DNA of 26,711 nt from a virus: positions 1 through 26,711 of IMG/VR virus record IMGVR_UViG_3300029448_000352; one strand, given 5' to 3'. Positions 3,633-12,890 of the stretch are shown in pieces. The notes beneath the pieces are model-generated. The model had not been told where the DNA came from. It made no database searches and was given only the letters and a program-made list of their open reading frames with translations. The position numbers and the translations under genes were made by a program. Position 1 is the stretch's first letter. Every line of letters begins with the position of its first letter.

Positions 3633-3996
3633 ATTAGTATTTAGAAATTCAAAGACACTTCAATCCTTGGCGAGAAAAACTCTCGCCAAGAAGGAATTCA
3701 AAGTTCCTTACGAAGATAAATATACTGAAGAAAGAAGTTTTTATCTTGTGAAGGATGAAGGCATTTATGTGATGAATTGCTATAAGGACAAGGATCATAA
3801 GAAAAATCTTGTCGTGTATGCAAGTGGCTTTAATCCAAAGACAAACGTACATTGTTGGGATGATTGTGTCGATGCCGTAGGTGGAGACGATTTCGCTGAA
3901 AGTGTACCTTTATCAAACAAGATGCTGACGAGAATTTGTGAGGGTAATTCTTTGACGATTAACTTAACTGAAACTGAAATGAAAATAGAGGTGTAA
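3625..3996 (+). CDS. DUF3085-like protein, 123 residues
   Basis: ATG 3625 has AGAGGAG at 3609-3615 and overlaps the previous gene by eight bases. The central part (about residues 28-100), with VPYEDKY, LVKDEGIYVMNCY, YASGFNP and GGDDFAESVPL, resembles the uncharacterised DUF3085 domain found on plasmids and phages. I name that family from memory of its pattern, so treat it as tentative. It is soluble, with no signal or membrane segment. A perfect 10-bp inverted repeat lies within the first 22 codons (3666-3690) and may affect translation. The role is unknown. Confidence 0.7.
   Translation: MAKLVFRNSKTLQSLARKTLAKKEFKVPYEDKYTEERSFYLVKDEGIYVMNCYKDKDHKKNLVVYASGFNPKTNVHCWDDCVDAVGGDDFAESVPLSNKMLTRICEGNSLTINLTETEMKIEV
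3666..3690. repeat. Perfect 10-bp inverted repeat inside a coding region
   Basis: CTTGGCGAGA (3666-3675) and TCTCGCCAAG (3681-3690) flank AAAAC. The GC-rich stem stands out from its AT-rich surroundings and starts 41 bases after the ATG. There is no T-tract on either strand, so it is not an intrinsic terminator. It could be an mRNA structure or a dyad protein-binding site. Confidence 0.7.
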
Positions 3997-3997
3997 C

Positions 3998-4390
3998 ATG
4001 GGTAGATATTATCAAGGAGATATAGAAGGCAAATTTTGGTTTGCCGTTCAATCGAGTGCTGATCCAGAGTTCTTTGAACCATCTTGTTTTATAGAACTAG
4101 ATGAAGAGGATTGTGGAATGATCCGTTGGGAGTTCGAGAAGGAAGATCTTCCAAAAATCGAGAAAGGCATTCGGGAATGCAATTCTAAACTTGGTTCATG
4201 GGGCAAGAAACTCGATACGTTCTTCGGGAGTAGAGATACCTACACCGATGAAATGTTGACAAAGGCTTTGGGTACTTCTGCGAAAAAAGTCAGATCACTT
4301 TTGGAGTGGTATGCGAGGAGAGGACTTGGTTGTCGGATTTTACGTTGTGTCGAGGAACTAGGACATTGTCATTTTGAAGGAGAATGCTGA
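3998..4390 (+). CDS. Conserved-type protein starting MGRYYQGDIEGKFWF, 130 residues
   Basis: ATG 3998 follows AGAGGTG at 3986-3992, two bases after the preceding stop. The N-terminus MGRYYQGDIEGKFWFAVQSS is a recognisable signature of an uncharacterised protein family found in phages and some large viruses. The second half is helical, with a Cys/His-rich end (GCRILRCVEELGHCHFEGEC, residues 111-130) that could bind a metal, though spacing does not match a standard zinc finger. The biochemical function is not known to me. The stop overlaps the next gene start (TGATG). Confidence 0.75.
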   Translation: MGRYYQGDIEGKFWFAVQSSADPEFFEPSCFIELDEEDCGMIRWEFEKEDLPKIEKGIRECNSKLGSWGKKLDTFFGSRDTYTDEMLTKALGTSAKKVRSLLEWYARRGLGCRILRCVEELGHCHFEGEC

Positions 4391-4650
4391 TGGCTAAAAA
4401 ATTATCAACAATTACTAAAGCATGGACGATCAGTTATGAGGATCGGGTCACTCTTTTAGAGAAGTTGCAATGCCTCCAGAGGATCGAGCAAACAACCTCT
4501 GAGCATTGCTCTATCGATTACGAAGAAATCTGCAAAGCCGTCACTCTTTTGTATACCATATGCAATATGTTTGGCTTTGAGAATAAGAAGGAAAACGGAG
4601 TAAGAAGTTTTTATTCTGATTTAGTTTTAAAAGAGGAGAATGAAGAATGA
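4390..4650 (+). CDS. Hypothetical protein, 86 residues
   Basis: I choose ATG 4390, which shares a base with the previous TGA and lies seven bases after GGAG (4379-4382). ATG 4384 is two codons upstream in frame but sits too close to that Shine-Dalgarno. The product is a helical, cysteine-containing cytoplasmic protein with a paired-helix look (ISYEDRVTLLEKLQCLQRI, then DYEEICKAVTLLYTICNMFG). No family was recognised. The TGA overlaps the next ATG by ATGA. Confidence 0.7.
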   Translation: MAKKLSTITKAWTISYEDRVTLLEKLQCLQRIEQTTSEHCSIDYEEICKAVTLLYTICNMFGFENKKENGVRSFYSDLVLKEENEE

Positions 4651-4883
4651 ATATAGGTAAATTATATTATCTGCTGAAGGATCTTCCAGATCATTACGAA
4701 CTGAGGATCAAGATCAAAGGATCTCCAGACTACGATGATTTATATGTGGTTATGGATCAAGAAGTCTCCATTGAGACAAGTGGTAATAGTCCATTGGTTT
4801 CCTTGCAAAGCAAGGAGTTGGATCATGAGGTTATGCTCTTGAGGAAAGAAGGAGACTCAAGAATTTATAGGAGTGGCAACTAA
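4647..4883 (+). CDS. Hypothetical protein, 78 residues
   Basis: ATG 4647 overlaps the previous stop (ATGA), with GAGGAGAATGAAG upstream. The sequence KLYYLLKDLPDHYELRIKIKG looks like a helix followed by beta strands, and MDQEVSIETSGNSPLVSLQ continues the strand pattern. This resembles tiny single-domain phage proteins of unknown function. Its stop shares a base with the start of the membrane protein at 4883. Confidence 0.7.
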   Translation: MNIGKLYYLLKDLPDHYELRIKIKGSPDYDDLYVVMDQEVSIETSGNSPLVSLQSKELDHEVMLLRKEGDSRIYRSGN

Positions 4884-5011
4884 TGGGAGATGATTTAGAA
4901 AATAAATGTCTGAAGTATTATGCTGACTTTTTAATTATTTGTGGATTGCTCCTATTCTTGGGAATAGGTGGAGCGATCCTCTATCAACTCATTTATGGGG
5001 GTGGACAATGA
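4883..5011 (+). CDS. Small single-pass membrane protein, 42 residues
   Basis: This tiny gene fits exactly between its neighbours: ATG 4883 shares a base with the preceding TAA, and its TGA overlaps the next ATG as ATGA. The Shine-Dalgarno is weak (TAGGAGTGG). After a charged N-terminus (MGDDLENK) comes one hydrophobic helix, FLIICGLLLFLGIGGAILY at about residues 16-34, then a short polar tail. It is predicted to sit in the inner membrane with one pass. A holin, superinfection-exclusion or host-membrane-signalling role are all possible, but position in the early block argues against lysis. Confidence 0.65.
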   Translation: MGDDLENKCLKYYADFLIICGLLLFLGIGGAILYQLIYGGGQ

Positions 5012-5211
5012 AAACTAAAATTGAAATAGAAGATTGGATCTATCTTTATTCTGAGTTATCTGGTTACATTGAAGGAAGAATATGTAGTTTTGATAATACT
5101 ACGCATGATGTTTGGGGCAATCGTTTACCAGAAACAGAAGATAAATTCTGTGATATCTGTACTGACGTTGAGGAGATCATGAGTACTGTTTTAGAAAAGG
5201 CAGAACTATGA
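5008..5211 (+). CDS. Hypothetical protein, 67 residues
   Basis: I use ATG 5008 because it overlaps the upstream stop (ATGA) and follows GGGGGTGG. The in-frame ATG at 4939 would read through the membrane-protein gene and is not supported. The product is acidic, with KIEIEDWIYLYSELSGYIEG at the start and a Cys pair (CDIC) near residues 48-51. No family was recognised. It directly precedes the methyltransferase with a four-base overlap. I checked it for a displaced methyltransferase motif I and found none. Confidence 0.65.
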   Translation: MKTKIEIEDWIYLYSELSGYIEGRICSFDNTTHDVWGNRLPETEDKFCDICTDVEEIMSTVLEKAEL

Positions 5212-6551
5212 GATATCAAGCAATAGAAATCGATAAATTTGCGATTAAAGTTTCGGACGATAACCATGAGGGGATCGTCCGATACCATGATGTTCGGGAC
5301 GTAACGGGCGAGATGTTGGGCAAGGTGGACTTCTTTTGTGGGGGGTCACCATGTCAAGGATTTTCGTTTTCTGGGAAACAATTGGCATTTGATGATCCTA
5401 GGTCGGTATTGTTTTTTGAATATGTTAGATTGCTGAATGAACTTCGGGAGATAAATCCAGAGATGGTTTGGATGTTGGAAAACGTGAATATGAAGAAAGA
5501 GTTTGAAAACATCATAACGGAAACTGTTGGAGTTAATCCCCTAAAGGTCAACTCAGCTATCTTTTGTCCTCAGAATAGGGTTCGGAATTATTGGTGTAGT
5601 TGGTACGTTGATCCATCGAGGTTCGTGGATCGGCATCGCTACATCAATGATATTTTGGATTTGGAATCAGAGGAGCAAATTAAGACATACACTCCAAAGG
5701 TTCGTGGTTCGAGGTCAGAGAATTGTCATGAGGTGGGTCATGCAGACGATATCAACGGACATGATATTCTGAAACGGATCTACTCTCCATCAGCCAAAGC
5801 ACCTACGTTGAATACGATGGGTGGGGGTAATCGACATCCAAAGGTTGCCTTGACGGAACCAGAATGGAATTCAGCATCGATTAGAAATCGTAGGTTGGAT
5901 GCCAACGGAGTTCGGAAAGACGATCAATTGGATTTAGATCTTGTTCCGTGTTTAGAGGTCAAAGGCGAAAAGAAATCGAATGCTTTGACAACTGTACAGA
6001 AAGACAACCTCGCATCGAACTTACCTCAAGGAAGATATCCATTGAAGAAAGCCTTTGATATTCCAAGAGAGATCTTGAAGGACAACGAGCGACAAAGACG
6101 GGTTTACGAAACAGATAGTAAATCTCCAAGTTTACTTGCTCGATCTGATAGTCCAAAGATTCGTCCGATTGCCGATATAGTCGGTGGGCAAGGGAAGGAT
6201 TTACTTCGAGCAGACATCGGGAAGTCCTCGACCTTGTTGGCTAGAGATTATAAAGGCTTTGGTAACCAAGGTATGACGGGAGTTCGAACCTCTGAATTCT
6301 ATAAGTGGCGAAGATTATCCGTGGTCGAGTGTTCAAGACTCCAAGGATTACCAGACGATTATTGTAAAAGTGTTTCGAAGTCTCAAGGCTATCGACAACT
6401 TGGCAACGGGTTTCAAGTCGATACGATCTTTGAGTTATTAAAGCAACTACCCAAGGACACACCTCTGGACAATGTGGCATCAGCTTTTGATGGCATCTCA
6501 TGTCTGAAGGTTGCCTTGGATCAATATGAGGAATGGAGGAGTCATGGCTAA
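5208..6551 (+). CDS. DNA (cytosine-5) methyltransferase, circularly permuted
   Basis: This 447-residue enzyme should transfer a methyl group from S-adenosylmethionine to cytosine C5, probably to hide phage DNA from restriction. It starts at motif II (QAIEIDKFAIKV). Then come DVRDVT (III-like, 28-33), catalytic GGSPCQGFSFSG with Cys49 (IV), LENVN at 90-94 (VI), QNRVRNYW at 122-129 (VIII), a long variable target-recognition region, RRLSVVECSRLQGLPDDY (IX) and GNGFQVDT from 399 (X). The SAM-binding motif I, normally first, is missing upstream (in-frame stop at 5169-5171) but appears at the end as VASAFDGISC, Phe427-Asp428-Gly429. The order is thus II to X, then I. Motifs III to VI resemble DNMT3-like phage enzymes. 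The usual Gly after FDGISC is Leu. The start overlaps the previous stop (ATGA). Family is firm; activity and target are unknown. Confidence 0.92.
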   Translation: MRYQAIEIDKFAIKVSDDNHEGIVRYHDVRDVTGEMLGKVDFFCGGSPCQGFSFSGKQLAFDDPRSVLFFEYVRLLNELREINPEMVWMLENVNMKKEFENIITETVGVNPLKVNSAIFCPQNRVRNYWCSWYVDPSRFVDRHRYINDILDLESEEQIKTYTPKVRGSRSENCHEVGHADDINGHDILKRIYSPSAKAPTLNTMGGGNRHPKVALTEPEWNSASIRNRRLDANGVRKDDQLDLDLVPCLEVKGEKKSNALTTVQKDNLASNLPQGRYPLKKAFDIPREILKDNERQRRVYETDSKSPSLLARSDSPKIRPIADIVGGQGKDLLRADIGKSSTLLARDYKGFGNQGMTGVRTSEFYKWRRLSVVECSRLQGLPDDYCKSVSKSQGYRQLGNGFQVDTIFELLKQLPKDTPLDNVASAFDGISCLKVALDQYEEWRSHG

Positions 6552-6723
6552 GAAACGAGGAGTTCCAGAACGTCCAAGAAATCCGTATCACATTCGGAAA
6601 AGATCCCATGTGATTCCAGACAAACGGGAGAAGGACAAAAGAAATCGCCATCTGCATGATTTGTGGATGGCGAAGAAACTTAATCAAGAAATCAAGAAAG
6701 AAGAAGAAAATGAAGACATATAA
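6544..6723 (+). CDS. Small highly basic protein, 59 residues
   Basis: ATG 6544 follows GGAGGAG inside the end of the methyltransferase gene and overlaps its stop by eight bases, so coupling is likely. The product is strongly basic in its first 50 residues (MAKKRGVPERPRNPYHIRKR, then KREKDKRNRH) and ends in an acidic KKEEENEDI tail. This composition suggests nucleic-acid or ribosome binding, but no domain was recognised. Its position right behind the methyltransferase could mean a related role, which is inference. Confidence 0.7.
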   Translation: MAKKRGVPERPRNPYHIRKRSHVIPDKREKDKRNRHLHDLWMAKKLNQEIKKEEENEDI

Positions 6724-11363: not shown

Positions 11364-12890
11364 ATGTCAGATATAAACAAATTTATGCAGGCTTTTCGTG
11401 GCTCGGATGAGGCACACGGACAAACGACAGTTGGTGCAGTAGGTCGGAACGGAAAGACCGAGGCACAGAGTCGAGTGGTTCGTGAGCCGTTGACCGAGGA
11501 ACTAATACAGAACCACCTCGAAGGAAAGCACGGAGTCGGGGCGATCCCGATTAATAAGAGTAATGAATGTTACTTTGGGGCGGTTGATATTGATCAGTAT
11601 GACCTTGACCATAAAGCATTAATAAAGAAGATAATTAAATTTAAGCTGCCACTTGTTGTTTGTCGGTCAAAGTCTGGTGGTGCTCACTTGTTTTGTTTCT
11701 TGAAAGAACCGACACAAGCAAAGATTTTTAGAGAATATTTAACGGAGATTGCGGGTGCTTTAGGATATGCCAGAGCCGAGATATTTCCGAAACAAGATAG
11801 TATACTCTCCGAAAGAGGGGATGTAGGTAACTTTATTAACTTACCTTACTTTAAAGCAAAGCAAACCATGAGATATGCCTTTGACGATAAAGGTAATGCT
11901 ATGAAACTAGATCAGTTCTTGGCGATGGTCGAGAAGAAGAAGACATTTGTTGCAGATTTAGAGAAGGTAAAGTACGGGGAAAGCCGTGAGGTTTTTGCCG
12001 ACGGGCCACCTTGTTTGCAAAATTATGTGTCAAGTGGAAAAGTTGACAATAATAGAAATATTTTTCTTTCGCAGTGTGCTCCATATTGCAAGGGCAAGTT
12101 CTCGGATTCTTGGAAGAATTCATTGGAAGAGATAAACCAGAGACATTGTGCTCCCCCTCTTCCCGCGAGTGAGTTGGTTACACTGCAGAACCAATACCAG
12201 AAGAAGGATTATTATTACCAATGCAACATCGAACCGAATGCCTCTTTCTGTAACAAAGAATTATGTAAGACTCGAAAGTTCGGAATTGGTACGAAATCGG
12301 ATCATGCTGCCGACTTGAGTGGACTAACGATTATGTTATCTGACCCGAAGTTGGTGTTTCTGGATGTGAATGGTGGACGATTGGAAATAACAATGGATCA
12401 CCTACAGAATCAGCATTTGTTTCAGAAGGCTTGTATGGAGCAACTCATGATGATGCCCTCTAAGATGAAAGAAACCGATTGGGTGACCAAAGTAAATGAA
12501 ATGTTGAAACACGCAGTTCAGTTAGAAGTTCCGAAAGAACTTACAGTAGATGGTCAGTTTTTTGATCTGCTAGAAACATTTTGCACAAGCCGTATTCGAG
12601 CACAATCCTCAGAAGAATTGTTTATGGGTAAGCCGTGGACAGAGGACGGAAGAACGATGTTCATGATTAATGGTCTGATGGAGTTTCTTCAGCAGAGAAA
12701 CTTTACTTCTTTTACTAGGGCACAGATACAAGAGCGTTTAAAGAAATTGAACAATGGGGGAGAGTGCAACGGACATAAGAGTGTTAGAAAACCCGATGGA
12801 GCAAGAACCACGTTACGAGTTTGGTGGGTTCCCGCGTTTGATGGTGTAGAGGAAGTTACAGAGGTGCCCGAAGATGAAATACCGTTCTGA
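11364..12890 (+). CDS. Archaeo-eukaryotic-type DNA primase (AEP/TOTE-like), 508 residues
   Basis: The N-terminal half is an AEP primase domain like that of TOTE-system primases. FGAVDID at 71-77 gives the metal-binding Asp75/Asp77, SKSGGAHLFCF at 102-112 has the catalytic His108, EIFPKQ is at 139-144 and NFINLPYF at 156-163. It should make RNA or DNA primers for the polymerase encoded downstream. A second part has CAPYCKG and later YYYQCN, ASFCN and ELCKTRKFGIG, a probable metal-binding cluster as in primase C-terminal domains. It ends EDEIPF, like an SSB tip; those last codons also carry the start of the next gene. The ATG at 11364 has no clear Shine-Dalgarno but a stem-loop before it. Confidence 0.87.
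   Translation: MSDINKFMQAFRGSDEAHGQTTVGAVGRNGKTEAQSRVVREPLTEELIQNHLEGKHGVGAIPINKSNECYFGAVDIDQYDLDHKALIKKIIKFKLPLVVCRSKSGGAHLFCFLKEPTQAKIFREYLTEIAGALGYARAEIFPKQDSILSERGDVGNFINLPYFKAKQTMRYAFDDKGNAMKLDQFLAMVEKKKTFVADLEKVKYGESREVFADGPPCLQNYVSSGKVDNNRNIFLSQCAPYCKGKFSDSWKNSLEEINQRHCAPPLPASELVTLQNQYQKKDYYYQCNIEPNASFCNKELCKTRKFGIGTKSDHAADLSGLTIMLSDPKLVFLDVNGGRLEITMDHLQNQHLFQKACMEQLMMMPSKMKETDWVTKVNEMLKHAVQLEVPKELTVDGQFFDLLETFCTSRIRAQSSEELFMGKPWTEDGRTMFMINGLMEFLQQRNFTSFTRAQIQERLKKLNNGGECNGHKSVRKPDGARTTLRVWWVPAFDGVEEVTEVPEDEIPF

Follow-up and report, generated by a model that had tools for sequence, protein, structure and literature searches.

The analysed window, the 26,711-nucleotide stretch comprising positions 1 to 26,711 of IMG/VR virus record IMGVR_UViG_3300029448_000352, carries a gene for a C5-cytosine methyltransferase whose motifs run in the order II-III-IV-VI-VIII-target recognition region (TRD)-IX-X-I, rather than in the canonical order I to X from the N-terminus. 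The gene overlaps a small gene at either end and has phage replication and structural genes as neighbours; the features referred to below are as follows.

5008..5211, plus strand: upstream gene, with no relation to methyltransferases
5208..5211, plus strand: ATGA in which the start codon of the methyltransferase shares bases with the stop codon of the upstream gene (GTGA in relative L083)
5208..6551, plus strand: circularly permuted C5-cytosine methyltransferase gene (P0001), 447 aa, from the ORF and profile matches
5220..5243, plus strand: motif II, the new N-terminus (AIEIDKFA, residues 5–12), from motif position; strand 2–6 in the model
5283..5303, plus strand: motif III (YHDVRDV, residues 26–32), from motif position; strand 24–26 in the model
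5340..5357, plus strand: motif IV (GGSPCQ, residues 45–50; catalytic Cys49)
5475..5486, plus strand: motif VI (LENV, residues 90–93)
5571..5594, plus strand: motif VIII (QNRVRNYW, residues 122–129)
5688..6302, plus strand: target recognition region, residues ~161–365; low model confidence over 240–361
6039..6164, plus strand: 42-residue segment (278–319) in the recognition region, absent by alignment from L001 and L002
6309..6347, plus strand: motif IX (RRLSVVECSRLQG, residues 368–380)
6399..6422, plus strand: motif X (LGNGFQVD, residues 398–405)
6450..6470, plus strand: junction linker between the old C-terminus and the old N-terminus (residues 415–421)
6471..6545, plus strand: relocated motif I (strand 422–426, FDGISC 427–432, helix 432–446), from the model and the motif-I profile
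6544..6723, plus strand: downstream gene (MAKKRGVPERPRNPYHIRKR...), overlapping the methyltransferase end; kept in L082, L083 and L156

The N-terminus of the ORF is fixed by an in-frame TGA at 5169–5171 and by its ATG, which shares bases with the TGA that ends the preceding gene, an arrangement that suggests translational coupling of the two. With a motif-I profile built from 87 canonical relatives, nothing above noise was found 5′ of the gene in the six frames of 4601–5300, which, together with the in-frame stop, upholds the claim of the first-pass annotation that no N-terminal motif I lies hidden upstream. The C-terminal motif I, by contrast, scored 18.1 bits against this profile, while 9.0 bits was the highest score among 20,000 shuffled versions of the segment; the segment itself (SAFDGISCLKVAL) begins at residue 425 by position search.

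The protein matches PF00145 with 118.6 bits (cut-off 22) and TIGR00675 with 111.5 bits (cut-off 100.65). In both cases, residues 5–6 onward correspond to profile position 27 onward, so that the first 26 profile positions have no N-terminal counterpart. The catalytic residues (Cys49 in PCQ, ENV and QxRxR) are present, as are the cofactor motifs I, II (with its Glu), III (with its Asp) and X. At the level of sequence, the ORF is confirmed as an intact C5-cytosine methyltransferase with a permuted motif order. It had also been proposed that a leucine in place of the usual glycine after FDGISC might alter SAM binding. However, this position varies among relatives, which have Gly, Phe (FAGIGGF in L087 and L088) or Asp (FSGVGAD in L004, a member of the nearest canonical clade), so Leu433 is no argument for altered SAM binding. 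The 42-residue segment sets the recognition region apart from that of the closest relatives, and the specificity may therefore differ too. This segment contains a KSPSLLA repeat-like element, suggestive of modular gain or loss of recognition units.

The surroundings of the gene are those of an accessory slot. The upstream gene is conserved: in L083 it again precedes the permuted gene, and in L156, a syntenic phage, it precedes a different one, an unrelated 89-aa gene (11740–12009, minus strand) that follows directly after it. Since a different gene thus fills the same slot, the methyltransferase is exchangeable cargo; a canonical methyltransferase was not found at this site in L156, the sole further syntenic record that reaches it. 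Pfam searches with ten proteins of the window revealed no recognisable partner restriction enzyme. A profile scan of the window record, which is a fragment, likewise returned no second PF00145 gene, and we rejected on this basis, within the limits of a fragmentary record, a separate methyltransferase that supplies motif I in trans. Elsewhere in the window, the replication module includes a primase with an AEP-TOTE domain (11364–12890; TOTE conflict system primase).

The structure of the protein was predicted with AlphaFold2 from an input of the window protein and 46 unmodified relatives, permuted ones included, so that the model is not blind to the permutation. The model (pTM 0.68) has pLDDT values mostly of 85–98 for about residues 1–200 and 365–447 and of under 50 for the recognition region 240–361. 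Its tail, for which a structure prediction had been proposed as a check, is predicted as a confident strand (422–426) and helix (432–446) with pLDDT 90–96. By VIA-align, model residues 1–419 superimpose on residues 34–323 of M.HhaI (Z 24.8, r.m.s.d. 2.6) and on residues 39–391 of M.MpeI (Z 23.6); M.HhaI residues 1–33, which make up the motif I region, have no sequential partner in the model. Strand assignment, model confidence and homology together argue strongly that the tail would sit in the SAM site beside residues 1–20. A Foldseek search against viral models returned ordinary methyltransferases and confirmed no further permuted case.

The enzyme had initially been labelled DNMT3-like, a description that is only partly apt, DNMT3 being its nearest known relative neither by sequence nor by fold. 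Its best solved sequence matches are M.HaeIII (5e-18) and M.HhaI (6e-17), ahead of DNMT3B (3e-9), and M.HhaI also leads DNMT3A (Z 22.8) among the structural matches. The label is better suited to the second phage family described below.

A scan of IMG/VR yielded 80 loci, two of which share its unusual C-terminus. L001 (the same as L083 and L154) is 85% identical overall by alignment and has the same motif order; L002 (the same as L082 and L151) is 97% identical over the part covered and has motif I after X, its N-terminus lying outside a contig that truncates the gene at the 5′ side. Both proteins end in FDGISCLKVALDQY. In the other relatives, motif I is N-terminal wherever the N-terminus is covered, and a second IMG/VR scan with the C-terminal 60 residues as query returned only the L001 and L002 contigs. 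Across all loci retrieved, a profile survey classed 88 ORFs as canonical (I-II/III-IV/VI-IX/X); motif I after X at the extreme C-terminus was seen only in the window, L001 and L002, and the complete II-to-I order was visible only in the window and L001. The permuted II-first form is hence known from three contigs, one of them 5′-truncated. A scan of genome contigs gave weak relatives only, none with the II-to-I order. In Enterococcus phage EF62phi and Streptococcus phage IPP64, genes that seemed to run on from X into I were set aside as canonical, the extension being due to chance. The first-pass annotation had named homologues with an N-terminal motif I, alone or together with a C-terminal one, as a sign of mis-assembly or decay; L001, the permuted relative whose gene is complete, has neither arrangement.

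The gene neighbourhood of L001 and L002 also matches that of the window: the small flanking genes recur on whichever sides are covered, and in L001 the start overlap reads GTGA. Between the window and L001, dN is 0.10 and dS about 1.6 (saturated), corresponding to a dN/dS of 0.061; for the last 33 residues the ratio is 0.147 on ten differences (four nonsynonymous and six synonymous), and for the window and L002 it is 0.06. A dN/dS of about 0.06 at saturated dS indicates that the permuted form has been maintained by selection over a long divergence. The synonymous divergence of the tail from L001 (window 6450–6548) is low, 0.30 versus 0.66 for the whole gene over ~20 sites, perhaps owing to recombination or overlapping constraint. 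With homologues, selection and structure prediction in agreement, the proposal of a C5-methyltransferase permuted between motifs I and II is borne out.

Natural circular permutants of this enzyme class are known, and so are engineered ones. A search of REBASE identified 27 natural permuted C5-methyltransferases, all of them broken in the variable region, and nature was suggested to favour pathways that keep both domains intact (Albert et al. 2018; PMC5944983). The Type H enzymes (M.BssHII, M.Alw26I, M.Esp3I, M2.Eco31I and M2.BsaI) belong to the same enzyme class as the window protein and are natural circular permutants too; however, they are broken in the variable region, with IX and X before I–VIII (PMC5944983), whereas the N-terminus of the window enzyme lies at motif II and its break between I and II. 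Permutants with breaks elsewhere have been engineered, among which cp35M.MpeI is active, albeit poorly soluble (PMC5944983). The breaks of cp35M.MpeI and cp33M.SssI are close to that of the window enzyme: residue 1 of our model corresponds to M.MpeI residue 39, four residues from cp35, and the N-terminus between motifs I and II is that of the cp35 class, a placement of the cp35 break that relies on residue numbering and the class scheme (PMC5944983). These two proteins are designed variants of the CG-specific M.MpeI and M.SssI, whereas the window enzyme is natural and comes from a phage. Because the surveyed natural permutants were broken in the variable region alone (PMC5944983), the break between motifs I and II represents a new natural topology. 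A literature search, mostly of open-access work, found no description of a phage permuted C5-methyltransferase, although this does not prove priority.

Two further groups bear on this comparison. The canonical phage C5-methyltransferases (phrog_116; L004, L036, L029 and L042 being nearest in the tree) share with the window enzyme motifs II–X, the catalytic residues, the setting as a solitary phage gene and homology over the whole body, but in this nearest clade motif I is N-terminal (LFSGVGADIMAW...), whereas it is C-terminal in the window enzyme. Plant DRM (4onj, 4onq and 7l4c) has an X-to-I linker of nearly the same length, the spacing from GN to FDG in the window protein nearly equalling that of the crystallised enzyme, and the sequence alignment crosses the junction with a single-residue gap. 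DRM is a eukaryotic protein with extra domains that starts around motif VI and ends after V. The window enzyme does not have this order (VI–X, then I–V) and shares with it the X-to-I junction only; plant DRM was not among the best 50 structural matches listed for the window model.

A tblastn search with the C-terminus of the window protein led to a second permuted family, in Phage nd4 and human faecal phages, the proteins of which start at motif IV (MIKILIGGSPCT) and end IX-X-I (MYDGIGTG)-II-III. A scan with the nd4 protein (WRQ08028.1) gave 38 loci; in the profile survey, 33 ORFs in all, mostly from gut phages and prophages, showed IV/VI, IX/X and then II/III, motif I being discernible after X and before II (examples are L084:2981–4657, L085:3472–5157 and loci in L089–L126, such as L119:1797–2684). 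The family corresponds to phrog_17284, which is listed as ‘unknown function’. In Pfam, one member matches profile positions 3–56 downstream of positions 61–318, below the cut-off. The model of L119, a short member, has a pTM of 0.83 and its best match is plant DRM (4onq_B, Z 15.9, model residues 42–295), with which it aligns in order through X-I-II-III to the C-terminus; DRM leads DNMT3 by less than one Z unit, and the DNMT3 matches stop at residue 229, before motif I. A comparable IV-to-I arrangement is found in beta-class N4/N6 methyltransferases. Both the IV-first proteins and the window enzyme are phage-encoded and have motif I after X with an X-to-I junction; by contrast, the IV-first break lies between III and IV, II and III are C-terminal as well, the catalytic motif is PCT instead of PCQ, and the proteins form a separate clade. 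The window protein starts at II rather than IV and its similarity to phrog_17284 is local only, over residues 359–439.

Within this second family, the ORF of L105 that starts at 1858 (880 aa) has an apparent intein directly before the catalytic cysteine (...ANNAIVHN|CTKWSIAQ), and in MT835543, a record marked UNVERIFIED, the methyltransferase is split over two overlapping frames (L086:2724–4118 and 3959–4396). The genome of Phage nd4 (OR777945.1) also encodes a MunI-like protein at 40145–40606 and an adenine methyltransferase.

In a tree built on the shared body, motifs II–X, the window enzyme and L001 (100/100) join the canonical L004, L036, L029 and L042 (99/96), whereas the IV-first clade (100/99) lies elsewhere, beside canonical L065. 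Since the best tree separates the two permuted groups, it implies two permutations, and independent origins of the II-first and IV-first forms are favoured on this phylogeny. A single permuted clade is not rejected by the AU test (P = 0.287), and one ancient fusion of X to I, later re-cut into the II-first and IV-first forms and perhaps plant DRM, would also account for the similar X-to-I spacing (28 residues in the window enzyme, 29–31 in the IV-first proteins). Against it stands the maximum-likelihood tree, with the two groups in separate places, and we regard a common fusion as rather unlikely; it concerns the origin only and is compatible with the functional explanation given below. We would attach far less probability still to the broader proposition that phages repeatedly evolved permutations at I|II and III|IV, break points believed not to occur in nature, and that plant DRM inherited its X-to-I junction from a phage-type fusion and is not a permuted eukaryotic DNMT3.

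Permuted enzymes have been proposed to arise by duplication followed by trimming at both ends (PMC5944983). The II-first form most likely originated in an in-frame tandem duplication of a canonical gene, after which the first copy lost its motif I and the second lost everything after motif I. Two to four C5-methyltransferase genes occur in tandem on single phage contigs (L038, L039, L040, L043 and L055–L061), so that suitable substrates for such a route do exist. The motif I of the window enzyme is nearest to the NVLSLFDG.SCG types (11 of 22 residues), whereas its sister clade has LFSGVGADIMAW; a chimaera with a body from the L004 clade and a motif I from an FDGMSC-type enzyme was considered, but 22 residues are too few to decide it.

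The window enzyme is very probably a conserved, functional natural permutant, with a putative activity and specificity. We consider it likely that it is a complete phage C5-cytosine methyltransferase with one normal SAM pocket, of duplication origin and serving as anti-restriction cargo. According to the model, the chain would start at the second strand of the SAM domain (motif II) and close with strand 1 and its helix (motif I), and these two ends are predicted to fold back side by side into a normal SAM pocket, with the short linker after motif X probably playing the role of the X-to-I linker in plant DRM. The gene sits in an accessory slot of exchangeable content, flanked by two small conserved genes. 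On established phage biology, a solitary phage methyltransferase most plausibly shields phage DNA from host restriction: the DNA would be methylated, and host restriction enzymes would not cut it.

M.MpeI and M.SssI can each be assembled in trans from complementing fragments (PMC5944983), and the C-terminal motif I of one chain could in principle complete the SAM pocket of another in a domain-swapped dimer. The linker, however, is nearly as long as that of DRM, which has been crystallised with X-to-I in one chain, and the monomer model is confident at both ends, which makes such a dimer improbable. About as doubtful is a decayed or non-catalytic leftover, in which the terminal motif I would be all that is left of a second gene, and the protein would be inactive or only DNA-binding. 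Its motif I is indeed more diverged than in canonical relatives, and a long branch (0.9 changes per column) points to fast past evolution; yet dN/dS is 0.06 over saturated synonymous divergence, every catalytic residue is retained and the tail is conserved in three contigs. The 26.7-kb window is a metagenomic virus record, but a mis-joined canonical gene, or a different frame holding an N-terminal motif I, is almost inconceivable given the same arrangement with differing sequence in two other IMG/VR contigs, the absence of an upstream motif I from the six frames searched and a start overlap conserved as ATGA or GTGA. Thus, two further contigs with the same arrangement and neighbourhood, together with the low dN/dS, argue against both assembly error and decay and in favour of a functional permutant.

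The window gene is broken inside its SAM-binding domain and evolves under strong purifying selection; another phage family is cut elsewhere in the same domain. With two phage families broken inside the SAM-binding domain, phages are an exception to the generalisation of 2018 that natural breaks fall in the variable region. The canonical sister clade and the window enzyme form a natural before-and-after pair, on which the model of permutation by duplication and the cost in SAM affinity of a break between I and II may be assessed. Moreover, profile-based annotation misses or mislabels permuted enzymes, as illustrated by the listing of phrog_17284.
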